A DNA stretch of 33,720 nt. Source: Planctomycetota bacterium (GTDB lineage Bacteria > Planctomycetota > Phycisphaerae > Sedimentisphaerales > Anaerobacaceae). The position numbers were made by a program, and so were the translations under genes. How positions within the stretch are numbered: position 1 is the stretch's first letter; every line of letters starts with the position of its first letter. The notes beneath the pieces were generated by a model that worked only from the letters and a program-made list of their open reading frames with translations, did not search any database and was not told the DNA's origin. The DNA lies in NCBI GenBank assembly GCA_023135865.1, contig JAGLSG010000011.1:1-33720 (forward strand), given 5' to 3'. This document shows, piece by piece, positions 3,903 to 13,715 of this stretch.

Positions 3903-3912
3903 AAACAAAAAA

Positions 3913-3940
3913 ATAACGAACAATGAACTACGAACTAAAA
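3913..3940 (+). repeat. 7-bp tandem array over the rnfC start
   Basis: Four degenerate heptamers: ATAACGA, ACAATGA, ACTACGA, ACTAAAA. The rnfC ATG (3923) lies inside the second unit, so codons 1-6 of rnfC are repeat-derived. There is no SD. Confidence 0.65.
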
Positions 3941-5287
3941 AATAAACAAACTTTTGCCGGTGGAATTCATCCGAAATCGGCTGAAAAACTCGCTAAAGAT
4001 TGCAAAATCGAGCCGTTCCCAGTGCCAAAACAGGTAGCTGTTATGCTAAGTCAGCATATAGGAGCTATCTGTAAGCCGCTCGTTAAAAAAGGCGATGATG
4101 TAAAAATCGGACAAAAAATCGGCGAAACAGATGCATTCGTTTCAGCAGCTGTCCACTCACCGGTCAACGGCAAGGTAAAAGATATAGCTCTGCAATCACA
4201 CGTTGTGGCTGGAAGAAGCAAAGCAATAATTATAGAAACAGATTTGGAAAATAATCCGCAAAAACAGCTCTGCAAAGATAAATTCAATGAAAACTTCAGT
4301 GCAGAAAAATATTCAGCTGAAGAAATATGCAACGCTGTAAATGAAGCTGGAATTGTCGGGCTTGGCGGGGCAGGATTTCCAACGAGAGTGAAACTCGAGC
4401 CGAATCCAAGATTGCCGAAAAAAACGCTTATAATAAATGGATGCGAATGTGAGCCGTGCATAACGGGTGATTATCGAATTATGCTCGAATGGACGAATCA
4501 GATGATAGCGGGAGTGAAACTTGCAAAAAAGGCCTCCGGCTGCTCAGACGTGTTCATCGGCATCGAAGATAATAAGCCGAAGGCCATAAAAACTATAATA
4601 GAAACGCTGGAAAAATCAAGCAATAATGAAAAAATAAAAGTTGTGCCGCTGGAAACGAAATATCCGCAGGGCGGCGAACGCCAGTTAATAAAAGCGGTTC
4701 TCGGAATAAATGTGCCGACCGGCGGAATCCCGCCAATGCTCGGTGTTGTTGTGCTGAATGTGGCAACGGCAGCGGCAATCGCTGAAGCGGTAGTCGAAAA
4801 AGCACCGTTGACGCACAGAGTGGTAACGATAACGGGAAAAACAATCGCAAAGCCGGCTAACTATTATGTGCCAATCGGAACAGCGGTTAATGAACTGCTC
4901 GAATTCGCAGGCGGCGTAACGGAAAAATCGGCAAAGGTTGTGCTGGGCGGCCCGATGATGGGAATAGCTATCGCAGATTTGACTACGCCCGTTACGAAAA
5001 CCACGGGAGCTGTTACGGTTCTGACAAAACAGGAAATCGGCAAAGCAAAATTCGCTTGCCAGCAAACGGCGTGTATCAGATGCGGAAGATGCCTTGAAGT
5101 TTGTCCTGAACATTTGAACCCAACGAAAATAGCTCACGCTGTGAAAAATGATATGCTCGATGTGGCTGAAGATTATTACATAAAAGCGTGTATCGAATGC
5201 GGCTGCTGTAGTTATATTTGTCCGGCGAATATAGAAGTAGCTGGATACATAAAAACAGGTAAAATTTTTCTCGCAAGGCAAAAATAA
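3923..5287 (+). CDS. rnfC: Rnf complex subunit RnfC/RsxC (ferredoxin:NAD+ oxidoreductase, NADH-binding iron-sulfur subunit)
   Basis: The peripheral subunit where NAD+ is reduced. Near the N-terminus lies the family hallmark FAGGIHP (residues 11-17). A glycine-rich nucleotide/FMN segment GGAGFPTRVKL starts near 148, followed by the INGCECEPCITGDYRIMLE block. Two 4Fe-4S motifs close the protein: C384-x2-C387-x2-C390-x3-C394P and C423-x2-C426-x2-C429-x3-C433P. The length of 454 aa fits the compact RnfC of anaerobes. It is the first core gene in the order C-D-G-E-A-B, as in clostridia and acetogens. A 199-base gap with an inserted repeat separates it from rnfD, which is unusual within this operon. 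The start lies in a heptamer array. Confidence 0.96.
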   Translation: MNYELKNKQTFAGGIHPKSAEKLAKDCKIEPFPVPKQVAVMLSQHIGAICKPLVKKGDDVKIGQKIGETDAFVSAAVHSPVNGKVKDIALQSHVVAGRSKAIIIETDLENNPQKQLCKDKFNENFSAEKYSAEEICNAVNEAGIVGLGGAGFPTRVKLEPNPRLPKKTLIINGCECEPCITGDYRIMLEWTNQMIAGVKLAKKASGCSDVFIGIEDNKPKAIKTIIETLEKSSNNEKIKVVPLETKYPQGGERQLIKAVLGINVPTGGIPPMLGVVVLNVATAAAIAEAVVEKAPLTHRVVTITGKTIAKPANYYVPIGTAVNELLEFAGGVTEKSAKVVLGGPMMGIAIADLTTPVTKTTGAVTVLTKQEIGKAKFACQQTACIRCGRCLEVCPEHLNPTKIAHAVKNDMLDVAEDYYIKACIECGCCSYICPANIEVAGYIKTGKIFLARQK

Positions 5288-5316
5288 TTTTTGATTTTTA
5301 ATGATACATCTGAAAA

Positions 5317-5422
5317 TGTCATTGCGAGGAGTGAAACGACAAAGCAATCTCTGTTATTGCTTCGAAGGCGAGATTGCTTCGCTGCGCCTTTCGACAGGCT
5401 CAAGACTTTGCTCGCAATGACA
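5317..5422. repeat. 106-bp palindromic MITE-like element between rnfC and rnfD
   Basis: Perfect 12-bp terminal inverted repeats TGTCATTGCGAG (5317-5328) and CTCGCAATGACA (5411-5422) enclose an inner inverted pair AAGCAATCTC/GAGATTGCTT (about 5342-5351 and 5370-5379). The motif of CATTGCGAG with CAATCTC is a palindromic repeat commonly seen dispersed in many bacterial genomes. It has no coding capacity. Its position interrupts the rnf operon. Confidence 0.8.
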
Positions 5423-5456
5423 GAACGTATTTTTAAGGGTTATTTTAGTTATTAAA

Positions 5457-5491
5457 TTTTGAGTTCTGAATTTTGAGTTTTTAAAAATGCT
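5457..5491 (+). repeat. 7-bp tandem array over the rnfD start
   Basis: Heptamers TTTTGAG, TTCTGAA, TTTTGAG, TTTTTAA, AAATGCT. The rnfD ATG (5487) falls in the last unit. No SD is visible within the usual distance. Confidence 0.6.
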
Positions 5492-6500
5492 GAAAGATAT
5501 AACAGTTTCGTGTGCACCGCATATTTCAGGCCGCTTCTCAACAAGGAGCGTAATGGGCGATGTTATTATCGCACTTGTTCCGGCGATGCTCGCTGCGGGG
5601 TACTACTTTAGAATGCACGCAGTTATTCTAATCGCAACGTGCGTAATTTCATCAATGGCGACCGAGTGGCTGTGCAATGTAATCAGGAAAAAGCCGAATT
5701 CGCTCGGCGATTTCTCTGCGGTTATTACCGGAATTATTCTGGCACTTTCAGTGCCGCCGAATCTGCCGATTTGGGCAGCGGTCATCGGCTCGTGCTTCGC
5801 AATAGCAATCGGCAAAATGGTCTTCGGCGGATTGGGTGCAAACATATTTAATCCGGCTATGGCTGGAAGAGCATTTCTCGCCGTTTCGTTTGGAATGATG
5901 ATGACTACCTGGACGGTGCCGGCGACAATTAATCCCGAAATGCCGAACATCTCAGCTGAAAATACTGTCGATGCAAGAACTCAGGCAACGCCGCTGGCAC
6001 TTAGTAAAGAGGCAATTAAAAAAGGCCAGAGAGCCGAAATAGTTAATGAACAATTGAAAGATGCCATCACTGGCCAAGTCGGCGGATGCCTCGGCGAAAC
6101 AAGTGCAATCGCACTTTTAATCGGCGGAATTTATCTGATAGTCAGAAAGACAATAAGTATCCACATCCCGCTGGCGGTCTTGCTTTCAGCTTTTGTATTT
6201 GGCTCAATTGCGTGGCTAATAAACCCAGAGGTTTATATTTCGCCGGTTGTGCATCTTGCTACGGGCGGCCTTTTAATCGGAGCTTTTTTCATTGCGACCG
6301 ACCCGGTTACTGCACCACTCAGCATAAAAGGAATGTGGATTTTCGGATGCGGCGTGGGAATTGTAACGATGCTCATTAGAATTGTCGGCGAATACCCGGA
6401 AGGAATGATGTTCTCGATACTTTTAATGAATGCTGTAACGCCTTTGATTGATAGATTCTGCAAGCTGATTCCAGCTGGAGGTAAACCAAGTGCCGCTTAA
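5487..6500 (+). CDS. rnfD: Rnf complex membrane subunit RnfD/RsxD
   Basis: An integral membrane subunit of 337 aa with many hydrophobic helices that carries covalently bound FMN in the family. The TQATPLAL segment gives the likely flavin-linked Thr168, although the common SGAT form is altered to Q-A-T. Other conserved parts are the N-terminal HISGRFSTRSVMGDVIIALVP stretch (split across residues 12-32), GGLGANIFNPAMAGRAF, the TDPVTAPLS motif and EYPEGMMFSILLMNAVTPLID. It participates in ion translocation together with RnfG, RnfE and RnfA. Its 3' end overlaps the GTG start of rnfG by 11 bases, showing translational coupling. Confidence 0.95.
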   Translation: MLKDITVSCAPHISGRFSTRSVMGDVIIALVPAMLAAGYYFRMHAVILIATCVISSMATEWLCNVIRKKPNSLGDFSAVITGIILALSVPPNLPIWAAVIGSCFAIAIGKMVFGGLGANIFNPAMAGRAFLAVSFGMMMTTWTVPATINPEMPNISAENTVDARTQATPLALSKEAIKKGQRAEIVNEQLKDAITGQVGGCLGETSAIALLIGGIYLIVRKTISIHIPLAVLLSAFVFGSIAWLINPEVYISPVVHLATGGLLIGAFFIATDPVTAPLSIKGMWIFGCGVGIVTMLIRIVGEYPEGMMFSILLMNAVTPLIDRFCKLIPAGGKPSAA

Positions 6501-7098
6501 AAAAATAAAATATTTCGCTGAGCAAAGTTGGCTCTTAATAATATCAGCACTTTGTTTTGGCCTGCTAATCGCAGCGGTGAATGCTTCTCTTGCACCAAGA
6601 ATAGAGCAAAACAAAATCAACAAACTCGACGACTTAATGAGAACACTTTTGCCGGCAGCGGAAGAATTTGAAGTTGCAGCTGAACTGCAAATCGATTCGG
6701 CAAAAGGCAAAAAAACAAAAAGCACAATTTACAAAGCTGTCTCCAAAACCGGCGAATGCGTCGGTTGGAGCTTCAACTGCTCGGGAGCCGGCTTTGCAGA
6801 TAAAATCGAGCTGGTAGTTGCGGTCGATAAAAACTTTGAAAAAATGGCTGGATTCGATTGTCTTTCAAGCAATGAAACGCCCGGCTTTGGCGATAAAATA
6901 AAAGAAGCCAAATGGCGAAAACAATTCGACGGCGCTCCGGCTGGAAATCTGACGCTGGCGAAAACAGGAAACATTGAAAAAATCGATTCTGAAATTATCG
7001 CAATCAGTGGAGCAACCGTTAGCAGTGATGCAGTTGTGAATATATTGAATAATGCAATGAGCCAAATTAAAAAACAAATGGCTGAAATACAAAACTAA
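6490..7098 (+). CDS. rnfG: Rnf complex FMN subunit RnfG/RsxG
   Basis: A 202-aa protein with one N-terminal membrane anchor (about residues 14-33) and a periplasmic FMN-binding domain. The flavin is attached by a phosphoester to Thr in the SGAT motif, here Ser173-Gly-Ala-Thr176 within ISGATVSSDAV. The GFGDKI segment before it is also conserved. The GTG start at 6490 is fixed by GGAGG at 6477-6481 and by homology of the membrane segment; it overlaps rnfD. This start has a strong SD and no heptamer array, in contrast to rnfC, D, E and A. Confidence 0.95.
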   Translation: MPLKKIKYFAEQSWLLIISALCFGLLIAAVNASLAPRIEQNKINKLDDLMRTLLPAAEEFEVAAELQIDSAKGKKTKSTIYKAVSKTGECVGWSFNCSGAGFADKIELVVAVDKNFEKMAGFDCLSSNETPGFGDKIKEAKWRKQFDGAPAGNLTLAKTGNIEKIDSEIIAISGATVSSDAVVNILNNAMSQIKKQMAEIQN

Positions 7099-7122
7099 AA
7101 ACGAAAAACCAAAGAGCCAAAG

Positions 7123-7157
7123 AAATGAGCAATACGCAATACGAGATACGAGATACG
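7123..7157 (+). repeat. 7-bp tandem array over the rnfE start and first codons
   Basis: AAATGAG, CAATACG, CAATACG, AGATACG, AGATACG: five exact-phase heptamers with two identical pairs. The rnfE ATG (7125) is in the first unit and codons 2-11 are made entirely of repeat. Confidence 0.8.
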
Positions 7158-7730
7158 ATAACAGGCGGTTTGTGGAAAGAGAATCCGGTCTTTCGGCTGC
7201 TGCTCGGAATGTGTCCGACACTGGCAGTTACAGCGGCGGTAAAGCCGGCTCTTACAATGGGGCTTTGCGTGGTGTTTGTTTTGGTGTGCAGTAATATCGT
7301 GGTTTCCCTTATGCGGAATTTATTAAAACCGCATCTTCGAATCCTGATGTTCACACTGACGATTGCAACTTTTGTTACAATTGCCGATTTATTATTAAAG
7401 GCCTTTCAGCCGGAAATGAGCGCAAAACTTGGCCCGTACATTCCGCTGATTATCGTTAACTGCATTATCATTTGCCGGGCTGAATCCTGTGCGAGCAAAA
7501 ACGGCCTTGTAATAAGTATTGTTGACGGCCTTGCGATGGGAGCCGGCTTTACAGTTGCTCTTTGCATCCTGGCGGCAATAAGAGAAGTTCTATCGACCGG
7601 TACTATTATGGAAATAAATGTTATGCCGCAAAGCTTTATTCCCTGGGCAGCAATGAGTATGCCCGTGGGAGCGTTTATAACTCTTGGTTTAGTGCTTGGA
7701 CTAATAAACAAAATAAGCACAAAAAAATAA
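7125..7730 (+). CDS. rnfE: Rnf complex membrane subunit RnfE/RsxE
   Basis: A 201-aa six-helix membrane protein, partner of RnfA. In related Nqr/Rnf structures the two related subunits hold an iron or 2Fe-2S centre between half-helices; the expected cysteines are Cys30 in LGMCPTLAV and Cys113 in IIVNCIIICRAE. GLWKENPVF near residue 16 is the usual entry to the domain. Everything before it (SNTQYEIRDT) is encoded by a 7-bp tandem repeat, so the natural N-terminus seems replaced by repeat-derived residues. No SD is seen. The alternative is that translation starts elsewhere, but no other in-frame start lies before GLW. Confidence 0.94.
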   Translation: MSNTQYEIRDTITGGLWKENPVFRLLLGMCPTLAVTAAVKPALTMGLCVVFVLVCSNIVVSLMRNLLKPHLRILMFTLTIATFVTIADLLLKAFQPEMSAKLGPYIPLIIVNCIIICRAESCASKNGLVISIVDGLAMGAGFTVALCILAAIREVLSTGTIMEINVMPQSFIPWAAMSMPVGAFITLGLVLGLINKISTKK

Positions 7731-7737
7731 AATATAA

Positions 7738-7779
7738 ATTACGAATTACGAGTAACGAGCGACGAGCAATGAATTATGG
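7738..7779 (+). repeat. 7-bp tandem array over the rnfA start
   Basis: ATTACGA, ATTACGA, GTAACGA, GCGACGA, GCAATGA, ATTATGG: six units in exact phase. The rnfA ATG (7776) is in the last unit. The consensus is close to NNNACGA. Confidence 0.78.
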
Positions 7780-8366
7780 ATACATTTACAACTTTACTGA
7801 TGGCATTTATCTCCATCGTAATAATTAACAATCTTGTTCTGACAAAGTTCCTCGGAATCTGTCCGTATCTCGGCGTGTCCGGCAGAGTGGATATGGCTTT
7901 TGGAATGGGGCTGGCTGTTACTTTTGTTGTAACAATTAGCGGAACGCTGACATGGCTAATCGACCATCTGATTTTAATCCCGCTCGATTTGGAGATTACG
8001 AGATACATCTGCTTTATTCTCGTAATAGCCGGAGCGGTTCAGCTCGTGGAAATGTATATTCGCAAATTCTTTCCGGCTCTTTACGATAGTTTCGGCATAT
8101 TTCTGCCGCTGATTACAACCAATTGTGCGATTTTGGGATTGTGTCTTTTTATAAATTTGTGGGGAATTGACAATCTGCCGGAAGCGGCGGTTCTCAGCTT
8201 CGGAGCGGGAATCGGTTTTACTGTAGCGATTTGCGTAATGGCTGGAATCAGGGAAAACCTGAATCTCGCTGATGTGCCGAAATGTCTCAGAGGTGCGCCA
8301 ATTACACTAATTACAGCCGGCCTGCTTACGCTGGCCTTTATGGGTTTTGCAGGAATGATTAAATGA
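7776..8366 (+). CDS. rnfA: Rnf complex membrane subunit RnfA/RsxA
   Basis: A 196-aa six-helix protein homologous to RnfE but with inverted topology. Conserved cysteines for the shared iron centre are Cys29 in LGICPYLGVSG and Cys117 in TTNCAILG. The family segments FLPLITTNCAILG and SFGAGIGFTVAI are clear. It overlaps the next gene, rnfB, by four bases (ATGA). It starts within the last unit of a heptamer array and has no clear SD. Confidence 0.96.
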   Translation: MDTFTTLLMAFISIVIINNLVLTKFLGICPYLGVSGRVDMAFGMGLAVTFVVTISGTLTWLIDHLILIPLDLEITRYICFILVIAGAVQLVEMYIRKFFPALYDSFGIFLPLITTNCAILGLCLFINLWGIDNLPEAAVLSFGAGIGFTVAICVMAGIRENLNLADVPKCLRGAPITLITAGLLTLAFMGFAGMIK

Positions 8367-9205
8367 TTCTCGCTGACATTTACCAACTATGGAGCAGTAT
8401 TTGGCCGGCTGGCGTTACGATGCTGGCTCTTGGCAGTGGTTTTGCAATTATTCTATTGATTGCAAGCGAAAAACTGAAAGTCGAAATCGACCCGAAAATC
8501 GAGCAGATTCAAGAGGCACTTCCCTCACTCGATTGCGGCGGATGTGGTTTTGCTGGCTGCGGTCAATATGCAAAAGCAGTTCTGGCCAATCCTGACCTGC
8601 TCGGAAAATGCGCTCCCGGCGGACAGAAAAGTACCGAAGCGATTGCGAAAATTCTCAATCTTCAGGTCAGCGATTCAGCCGCTCCCAAAAGGCCAATCGT
8701 TCATTGCAAAGGGCACACTAAAGACAAAACTTTCAACGCAATCTATCAGGGAATCCAAAGCTGCATAGCAGCAAACGCATTGTCTCCGGCGCAGGCGTGT
8801 AAATTCGGCTGCCTTGGTCTTGGCGATTGTGTGAGTGTTTGCAAATTCGACGCTATTTCCATAATCGACGGCCTTGCAACAATCGATTATGAAAAATGCA
8901 CGGGATGCGGGGCCTGCGCAAAACACTGTCCGAGGGGATTGATTGAGATGGTTCCGTTCAGTCAGGAAAAAATGATGACAGTCGCTTGCAGTAGTAAAGA
9001 ATCGGGAAAAGTTACTCGAACTATGTGCAAAGTCGGCTGCATCGGGTGCGGAATCTGCGTGAAAATGGGTGAACATTTCACAATTGAAAATAATCTTGCA
9101 CGCGTGGATTACGAAAATTATCAGCCAAGCGAAAAGAATCAAACCGCTCTAAATAAATGCCCCAAAAAGGTAATTATTGAAACAGGAAAGAAGTGTAAAG
9201 CGTAA
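8363..9205 (+). CDS. rnfB: Rnf complex iron-sulfur subunit RnfB/RsxB (ferredoxin-accepting)
   Basis: The entry point for electrons from reduced ferredoxin. It has an N-terminal membrane helix (about residues 16-36), then the RnfB 4Fe-4S domain with Cys58, Cys61, Cys66 and Cys83 (LDCGGCGFAGCGQYAKAV), then ferredoxin-like cluster motifs including CKFGCLGLGDCVSVC, CTGCGACAKHCPRGL and CKVGCIGCGIC. The 280-aa length is standard. Start: ATG overlapping the rnfA stop, with AGGA upstream. With rnfC present and these clusters, the operon is Rnf rather than Na+-NQR. The last codons and the stop (TGT AAA GCG TAA) lie in a heptamer array, so the tail is repeat-derived. Confidence 0.96.
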   Translation: MILADIYQLWSSIWPAGVTMLALGSGFAIILLIASEKLKVEIDPKIEQIQEALPSLDCGGCGFAGCGQYAKAVLANPDLLGKCAPGGQKSTEAIAKILNLQVSDSAAPKRPIVHCKGHTKDKTFNAIYQGIQSCIAANALSPAQACKFGCLGLGDCVSVCKFDAISIIDGLATIDYEKCTGCGACAKHCPRGLIEMVPFSQEKMMTVACSSKESGKVTRTMCKVGCIGCGICVKMGEHFTIENNLARVDYENYQPSEKNQTALNKCPKKVIIETGKKCKA

Positions 9206-9336
9206 AATTTAAAGTGTAAAACCATAACTAAAAACTTAAAGCTAAAGACAAAAAACACCAAGTTCTAAACTTTTGAATTTTAAGCTGTGGTTTTGAGTTT
9301 TGGCTTTTAAATTTTAAACTTTCCTGCCCATACCCA
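9194..9336. repeat. Heptamer arrays in imperfect inverted arrangement after rnfB
   Basis: Units TGTAAAG, CGTAAAA, TTTAAAG, TGTAAAA, CCATAAC, TAAAAAC, TTAAAGC, TAAAGAC and AAAAAAC run from 9194 to 9256 and include the rnfB stop. From about 9265 to 9336 a T-rich counterpart (TTTTGAG, TTTTGGC, TTTTAAA words) is roughly the reverse complement. The RNA could fold into a long AT-rich stem at the operon end. Confidence 0.55.
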
Positions 9337-9344
9337 TTTAACTC

Positions 9345-9445
9345 CCTCGACACGTAGCGAAGCGAAGAGCCCGGAACGGAAAGCGGGAATCCAAACCAAC
9401 GAATTTATTTCTGGATACCTGCTTTCGCAGGTATGACTGTGTGAA
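9345..9445. repeat. Dispersed repeat with ATACCTGC/GCAGGTAT hairpin
   Basis: Perfect arms ATACCTGC (9415-9422) and GCAGGTAT (9427-9434) around TTTC, preceded by CTGG and followed by GAC. This is the CTGGATNCC...GGNATGAC type of repeat common in environmental genomes. Further left lies AGCGGGAATCC, half of a similar unit. It fills the space between the convergent rnfB and dUTPase genes. Confidence 0.6.
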
Positions 9446-13657: not shown

Positions 13658-13660
13658 ATA

Positions 13661-13702
13661 AGTTCATTGTTAATTGTTCGTAGTTAATAGTTAATAGTTA
13701 AT
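13661..13702 (+). repeat. 7-bp tandem array upstream of secA
   Basis: AGTTCAT, TGTTAAT, TGTTCGT, AGTTAAT, AGTTAAT, AGTTAAT: six units with three identical copies. It ends 13 bases before the secA ATG (13716), which has no SD. Confidence 0.75.
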
Positions 13703-13715
13703 AAACTACAATCCT

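Follow-up and report, generated by a model that had tools for sequence, protein, structure and literature searches.

When the length of a repeat unit is not a multiple of three, the repeat is expected either to be purged from coding sequences or to serve there as a switch. Heptameric STRR repeats occur in Cyanobacteria, and in Rickettsia, palindromic elements are inserted in frame at tolerant sites of protein-coding genes. Heptamer direct repeats with the unit TAACTGA have been described in marine Beggiatoaceae and in some Cyanobacteria and Bacteroidetes (MacGregor 2015, PMC4679880). According to that paper, the forward TAACTGA unit has stops in all frames, so that forward arrays cannot extend far into genes. 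The same source cites a survey of long heptanucleotide repeats (Mrazek et al. 2007, as cited in PMC4679880). A proven heptanucleotide array in a 5' coding region is that of neuO in Escherichia coli K1, which consists of one unit in 3 to 53 tandem copies across 64 genomes, with several lengths found within a culture (PMC13001214). No description of heptamer arrays in planctomycetes was found in the open-licence literature, to which the search was confined (subscription literature was outside its scope).

The bacterial family considered here carries non-triplet arrays in frame in essential enzymes and over start codons, and these arrays differ between sister species, which makes them a testable case for the origin, the spread, and the protein use of short direct repeats. 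The array at the start of rnfE was the subject of an original prediction made from the DNA sequence; similar arrays at rnfC, rnfD, rnfA, and secA, as well as genome-wide, were absent from it.

The rnf operon and the heptamer array at the rnfE start

The window, i.e., the whole 33,720-nt stretch of DNA that was analyzed, is one contig of a 1.69-Mb genome that comprises 129 contigs. It contains the rnfCDGEAB operon (positions 3923-9205), with a family model match for each subunit, although several of the subunits score under the curated cut-offs of their models:

3923-5287, plus strand: rnfC (family match)
5487-6500, plus strand: rnfD (family match)
6490-7098, plus strand: rnfG (family match)
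7125-7730, plus strand: rnfE, ion-translocating electron transport complex subunit E (subfamily models, E values of 4e-62 and 2e-59)
7776-8366, plus strand: rnfA (family match)
8363-9205, plus strand: rnfB (family match)

The RnfE score is above the curated cut-off of NF009070 and below that of TIGR01948. Two features cover the region around its start codon:

7085-7122, plus strand: A-rich degenerate heptamer leader between the rnfG stop and the rnfE ATG (lag-7 match), with no clear Shine-Dalgarno sequence on inspection by eye
7123-7157, plus strand: heptamer array with the rnfE start codon and codons 2-11 (assigned from the sequence, lag-7 match, and shuffles)

The letters at 7123-7157 read aaatgag, caatacg, caatacg, agatacg, and agatacg, which confirms the original description of the rnfE ATG (7125-7127) and codons 2-11 (SNTQYEIRDT, ending at 7157) as lying in five heptamers with two identical pairs. 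The first heptamer is a poor match to the other units, and the perfect lag-7 runs extend from 7129 to 7143 (2.14 copies) and from 7139 to 7158 (2.86 copies). In comparisons with the solved RnfE chains, homology starts only at residue 10-12 of this RnfE, so most of its array-encoded residues are outside the conserved fold.

Among the 74 RnfE loci examined besides this one (80 were fetched, and 6 without the motif were left out), a heptamer array over the start is seen only in that of the congener. Given this confinement to two members of one genus, the array was, judging from the sequences, most likely gained within the genus; a single ancestral array for the whole family was rejected on the same count. 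The original prediction had named the same residues without a repeat in relatives as an observation that would speak against it. This comparison is inapplicable as worded: relatives outside the genus indeed have no repeat at the rnfE start, but they do not have the residues SNTQYEIRDT either (the N-terminus alignment covered 30 loci, of which 5 gave no motif and were left out).

Other arrays in the window

Period-7 repetition in the window exceeds chance. The top 28-base lag-7 score is 24, compared with the best score of 22 over lags 4-15 in 200 dinucleotide shuffles. Positions that score at least 20 number 75 at lag 7, 12 at lag 14, and 1 at lag 8, with none at the other nine of the lags 4-15 scanned in the window. 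The lag-7 clusters are located mostly before or over gene starts, namely, those of rnfC, rnfD, rnfE, rnfA, and secA. Besides the rnfE array, they include the following:

3903-3950, plus strand: degenerate heptamer array over the rnfC start codon, encoding MNYELKN (lag-7 match)
5445-5484, plus strand: T-rich degenerate heptamer array before rnfD (lag-7 match)
7715-7778, plus strand: ACG-type heptamer array that fills the rnfE-rnfA spacer and reaches the rnfA ATG (lag-7 match, congener)
13660-13715, plus strand: AGTTAAT-type heptamer array that fills the spacer before secA (lag-7 match, congener)
9223-9325, no strand assigned: two AT-rich heptamer arms, inverted, downstream of rnfB (hairpin-like)

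The fold of the inverted arms at 9223-9325 is not more stable than those of shuffled sequences.

The window also contains repeats of other kinds. Positions 1537-1822 and 1882-2023, which sit between two minus-strand genes, are copies of dispersed repeats (an element of ~290 nt and shorter modules) that have many relatives genome-wide. A REP-like hairpin, GGATACCTGCTTTCGCAGGTATGAC, is found at about 9380-9430, in a stretch of ~190 nt located 3' of rnfB that is absent from the congener.

The (ACGNNNN)n class of arrays

A sample of 375,250 bases of this genome, consisting of the window and of contigs drawn in the order of their numbers (at most 20 kb from each, with wholly masked ones excluded), contains 18 lag-7 tracts. 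Nine of them have the midpoint in an open reading frame (ORF) and nine outside. Control lags of 4, 5, 8, 10, 11, 13, 16, 17, 19, and 20 yield at most 2 tracts each in the same sample, at most 1 of them in ORFs (seven all-N tracts were subtracted at each lag). Arrays of at least three ACG triplets number 15 at period 7 and two at period 9 in this sample, and none were detected there at periods 5, 6, 8, 10, and 11. Genome-wide, 90 matches to the pattern (ACGNNNN)x3-ACG were counted (including those that overlap), whereas the reversed pattern gave 5 and the period-8 version 0. At least 10 matches to (ACGNNNN)x3-ACG are found in 20 of 25 genomes of the same family but in only 2 of 16 genomes from the other families of the order. 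Within the phylum, the distribution is patchy, with at least one match in 233 of 392 genomes. The arrays occupy intergenic spacers, in many cases as far as the start codon.

The commonest perfect units in this genome and its congener are ACGAGAT, ACGCAAT, and ACGAGCA. The ACG core is present in 23 of the 42 perfect heptamer runs of these two genomes, a set that includes stretches picked for their arrays; the remainder are mostly AT-rich units. The unit TAACTGA is not found among the units listed for the two genomes (25 of 27). In all nine ACG units that were checked, the ACG strand is open in all three frames, which allows such arrays to be coding; on the antisense strand, three of the nine contain stops.

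Arrays inside coding sequences

Several arrays lie in conserved genes with family matches. In a diguanylate cyclase, the array encodes the linker segment that precedes the GGDEF domain; the N-terminus of ScpB is array-encoded; and the array of riboflavin synthase is located immediately 5' of its GTG start. In the MurE of this genome, two loops are encoded by arrays, and so is one loop of ArgJ (these segments are referred to as loops from alignments, not from structure). Heptamer-encoded inserts in MurE are seen in four genera (4 of the 14 sequences aligned, after 2 of the 16 loci fetched were left out for having no motif), each at one or both of two shared positions but with differing units. 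The MurE insert of genome G013 has no heptamer repeat (8/14 matches at lag 7). The 6-residue insert in ArgJ is found at its site only in this genome, being absent from the 15 relatives among the 16 sequences aligned, and in two of the other ArgJ sequences, heptamer tracts occur at different positions.

One more set of coding arrays is found in the leaders of an operon that we presume to be prepilin-like and name so from its motifs GFSLTEV and GFTLIEL; its second protein has no family match. In comparison with the congener, one leader shows a length difference of exactly three units (21 nt), another is replaced, with a 15-nt difference, and a third has changed bases at equal length.

The coding arrays in MurE, ArgJ, the diguanylate cyclase, and the prepilin-like leaders are in frame every time. 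The inserts in MurE and ArgJ, sized by eye, are about 15, 18, 42, and 45 nt long, i.e., multiples of three but mostly not of seven. Replacement of segments would therefore fit them better than plain addition of units; such sizes are not predicted by simple unit expansion and count against the reading that is preferred below.

Turnover between sister species

The sister-species comparison involved one genome of the same genus that has rnfE. Between the two congeners, arrays are gained, lost, replaced, or altered in unit number. Thus, the secA spacer carries an array of the AGTTAAT type in this genome and one of the ACGAGAT/ACGCTTC type in the congener, between closely similar flanks. In the rnfA spacer, the congener has a different array and the stretch is 42 nt longer; the compared rnfC-rnfD stretch is 94 nt long in this genome and 81 nt in the congener. 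The array upstream of another gene is longer by exactly two units (14 nt) in the congener, and elsewhere an array occurs in only one of the two genomes. Among 30 syntenic spacers, the median identity is 0.76 for the 9 with arrays and 0.90 for the 21 without. Length differences of at least 7 nt are found in 6 of the 9 spacers with arrays, which include the rnfG-rnfE spacer, where the length is unchanged, and in 1 of the 21 without (Fisher p = 0.0009).

At rnfE itself, the congener array has an identical ATG position and an identical length (0 nt difference), and it differs in sequence: both AGATACG units are replaced by CAATACG, and the first unit differs by one base. The RnfE N-terminus is accordingly SNTQYEIRDTITG in this genome and SNTQYAIRNTIVG in the congener, which bears out, for related genomes, the original suggestion of a variable N-terminus. 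The difference in unit number that had been suggested along with it was not found in this comparison with a single congener. Four start-proximal coding heptamer segments that were compared differ between the two species by 0, 0, 15, and 21 nt, all of them multiples of three.

In addition, inverted, hairpin-like heptamer arrays are present in both species in one orthologous spacer, at L147:11228 and its counterpart in L131, with entirely different units.

Origin and possible functions of the arrays

The array at the rnfE start is probably one of the many degenerate (ACGNNNN)n arrays that are dispersed in this bacterial family. These would turn over fast, be filtered for reading frame, and be tolerated in leaders and in protein segments that are dispensable. 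Such arrays would arise and turn over quickly in intergenic spacers. They would also enter coding sequences at tolerant places, such as N-termini, linkers, and loops, because the ACG strand is without stop codons in any frame. At rnfE, the array would provide the last part of the leader, the start codon itself, and a short extension of the N-terminus beyond the conserved fold. Purifying selection on the frame would hold coding arrays at a protein-preserving length, and frame-shifting unit changes would be lost, hence such an array would not act as a switch; for rnfE, frame-keeping rests on the one congener comparison and on the prepilin-like genes. New arrays could come from replication slippage and from copying between arrays, the latter being suggested by the small unit vocabulary that is common to sites and genomes. 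Counting against this reading, the ACG core is missing in nearly half of the heptamer runs, and the four non-ACG bases follow no explained rule.

A tentative proposal is that (ACGNNNN)n constitutes a self-spreading system of this planctomycete family, in which copying or recombination would keep the ACG core and write arrays into spacers and into the ORFs of essential enzymes, while selection would keep those that are in frame. The arrays would thereby become a source of start codons, of leader peptides, and of new loops in proteins. They may also explain why annotated proteins of uncultured planctomycetes have stereotyped N-termini encoded by repeats.

It appears doubtful that the arrays are instead selected as weakly structured leaders, bound by the ribosome or an S1-like protein and replacing the Shine-Dalgarno sequence, with the coding part at rnfE being an overspill. 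A similar case has been argued for the TAACTGA repeats of Beggiatoaceae (MacGregor 2015, PMC4679880), and the planctomycete arrays do adjoin start codons. Of 25 array-led ORFs, 11 have their start ATG in register with the ACG (9 of 23 when each ortholog pair is counted once, with chance being 1 in 7; p = 0.003), and the rnfE and rnfA leaders fold weakly, at -1.4 and -2 kcal/mol. However, leaders are not less structured than their shuffles, and folding of the arrays against shuffles detected no special RNA structure. Neither is the Shine-Dalgarno sequence clearly depleted, as it is found in 6 of 25 array-led ORFs and in 73 of 243 ORFs, and arrays are also located deep in ORFs and in convergent spacers. 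The orientation bias is weak: in codirectional spacers, 40 arrays are in the sense and 23 in the antisense orientation relative to the downstream gene (p = 0.04), a moderate bias that led to the rejection of a strict orientation rule. For this count, genes were defined as the longest ORFs, with no gene finder, and some of the ORFs are probably spurious. A translation role for the arrays is possible, with Shine-Dalgarno depletion, low structure, and orientation lending it little support.

The original prediction saw the rnfE array as a potential phase switch. In the form weighed in the present analysis, slipped-strand gain or loss of heptamers would turn rnfE and, via coupling, rnfA and rnfB on and off, similarly to neuO of E. 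coli K1. The frame arithmetic behind it is correct: seven is not a multiple of three, so a one-unit change puts the ATG out of frame, and past the array one of the shifted frames stops immediately and the other after 45 codons, with a truncated product either way. The neuO array, likewise in a 5' coding region (PMC13001214), provides a proven precedent. Nevertheless, such a switch at rnfE is very unlikely. Its array is short and imperfect, as its two units, which differ from each other, are present in 2.1 and 2.9 perfect copies, compared with 3-53 in neuO; it has the same length in the congener, with units changed inside, even though noncoding arrays alongside do vary in length; and all four start-proximal coding segments keep to multiples of three. 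Besides, similar arrays are found at secA, murE, argJ, and other housekeeping genes, rather than at one contingency gene. Judged by copy number, by the congener, and by the range of genes that have arrays, phase variation was rejected as the main reading, and heptamer arrays in coding sequences should not automatically be taken for phase switches. Finally, although both genomes are metagenome assemblies and the units are degenerate, chance or an assembly artefact is exceedingly improbable, given a score that beats 200 shuffles, an array at the same site in two separate assemblies, and a genome-wide excess confined to period 7.

Relationship to known repeats

As a dispersed, frame-filtered class, the planctomycete arrays are best read as a kind of repeat similar to the TAACTGA arrays of Beggiatoaceae (PMC4679880). 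Both are seven-base direct repeats, largely in spacers near start codons, with an enrichment of period 7, a few of them lie in ORFs at protein ends, and related heptamers split arrays. In the sample of this genome, half of the tracts (9 of 18) have the midpoint in an ORF. The TAACTGA repeats are also associated with few canonical ribosome-binding sites, a point on which the Shine-Dalgarno counts given above show no clear depletion for the planctomycete arrays. In contrast to TAACTGA, the planctomycete unit is different and far more variable, with only ACG constant, and ACGNNNN is open and coding inside enzymes. The orientation bias of the planctomycete arrays is much weaker, and their turnover between congeners at orthologous sites is a further difference from the TAACTGA work.

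Compared with neuO (PMC13001214), the rnfE array shares the location in the 5' coding region but has few, imperfect copies and equal length in the sister species. The resemblance to the STRR repeats and to those surveyed by Mrazek et al., drawn by description only, lies in seven being a favored period in bacterial genomes and in the existence of dispersed families. The in-frame entry into genes at tolerant places is shared with the Rickettsia palindromic elements, which are palindromic and of other size and structure, whereas the planctomycete arrays are short direct repeats. The rnfE array was ruled out as a Rickettsia-type element since it consists of direct repeats and the leaders fold at only -1.4 and -2 kcal/mol.

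Upstream of the rnf genes of some family members (L010 and L022), CACTTTAG/CTAAAGTGA repeats of about 9-10 nt are found in place of heptamers. At L130:4495 and in L094, a short CCTTCGAC...GCTCAGGGCAGG repeat interrupts heptamer arrays, as if one type had entered the other.
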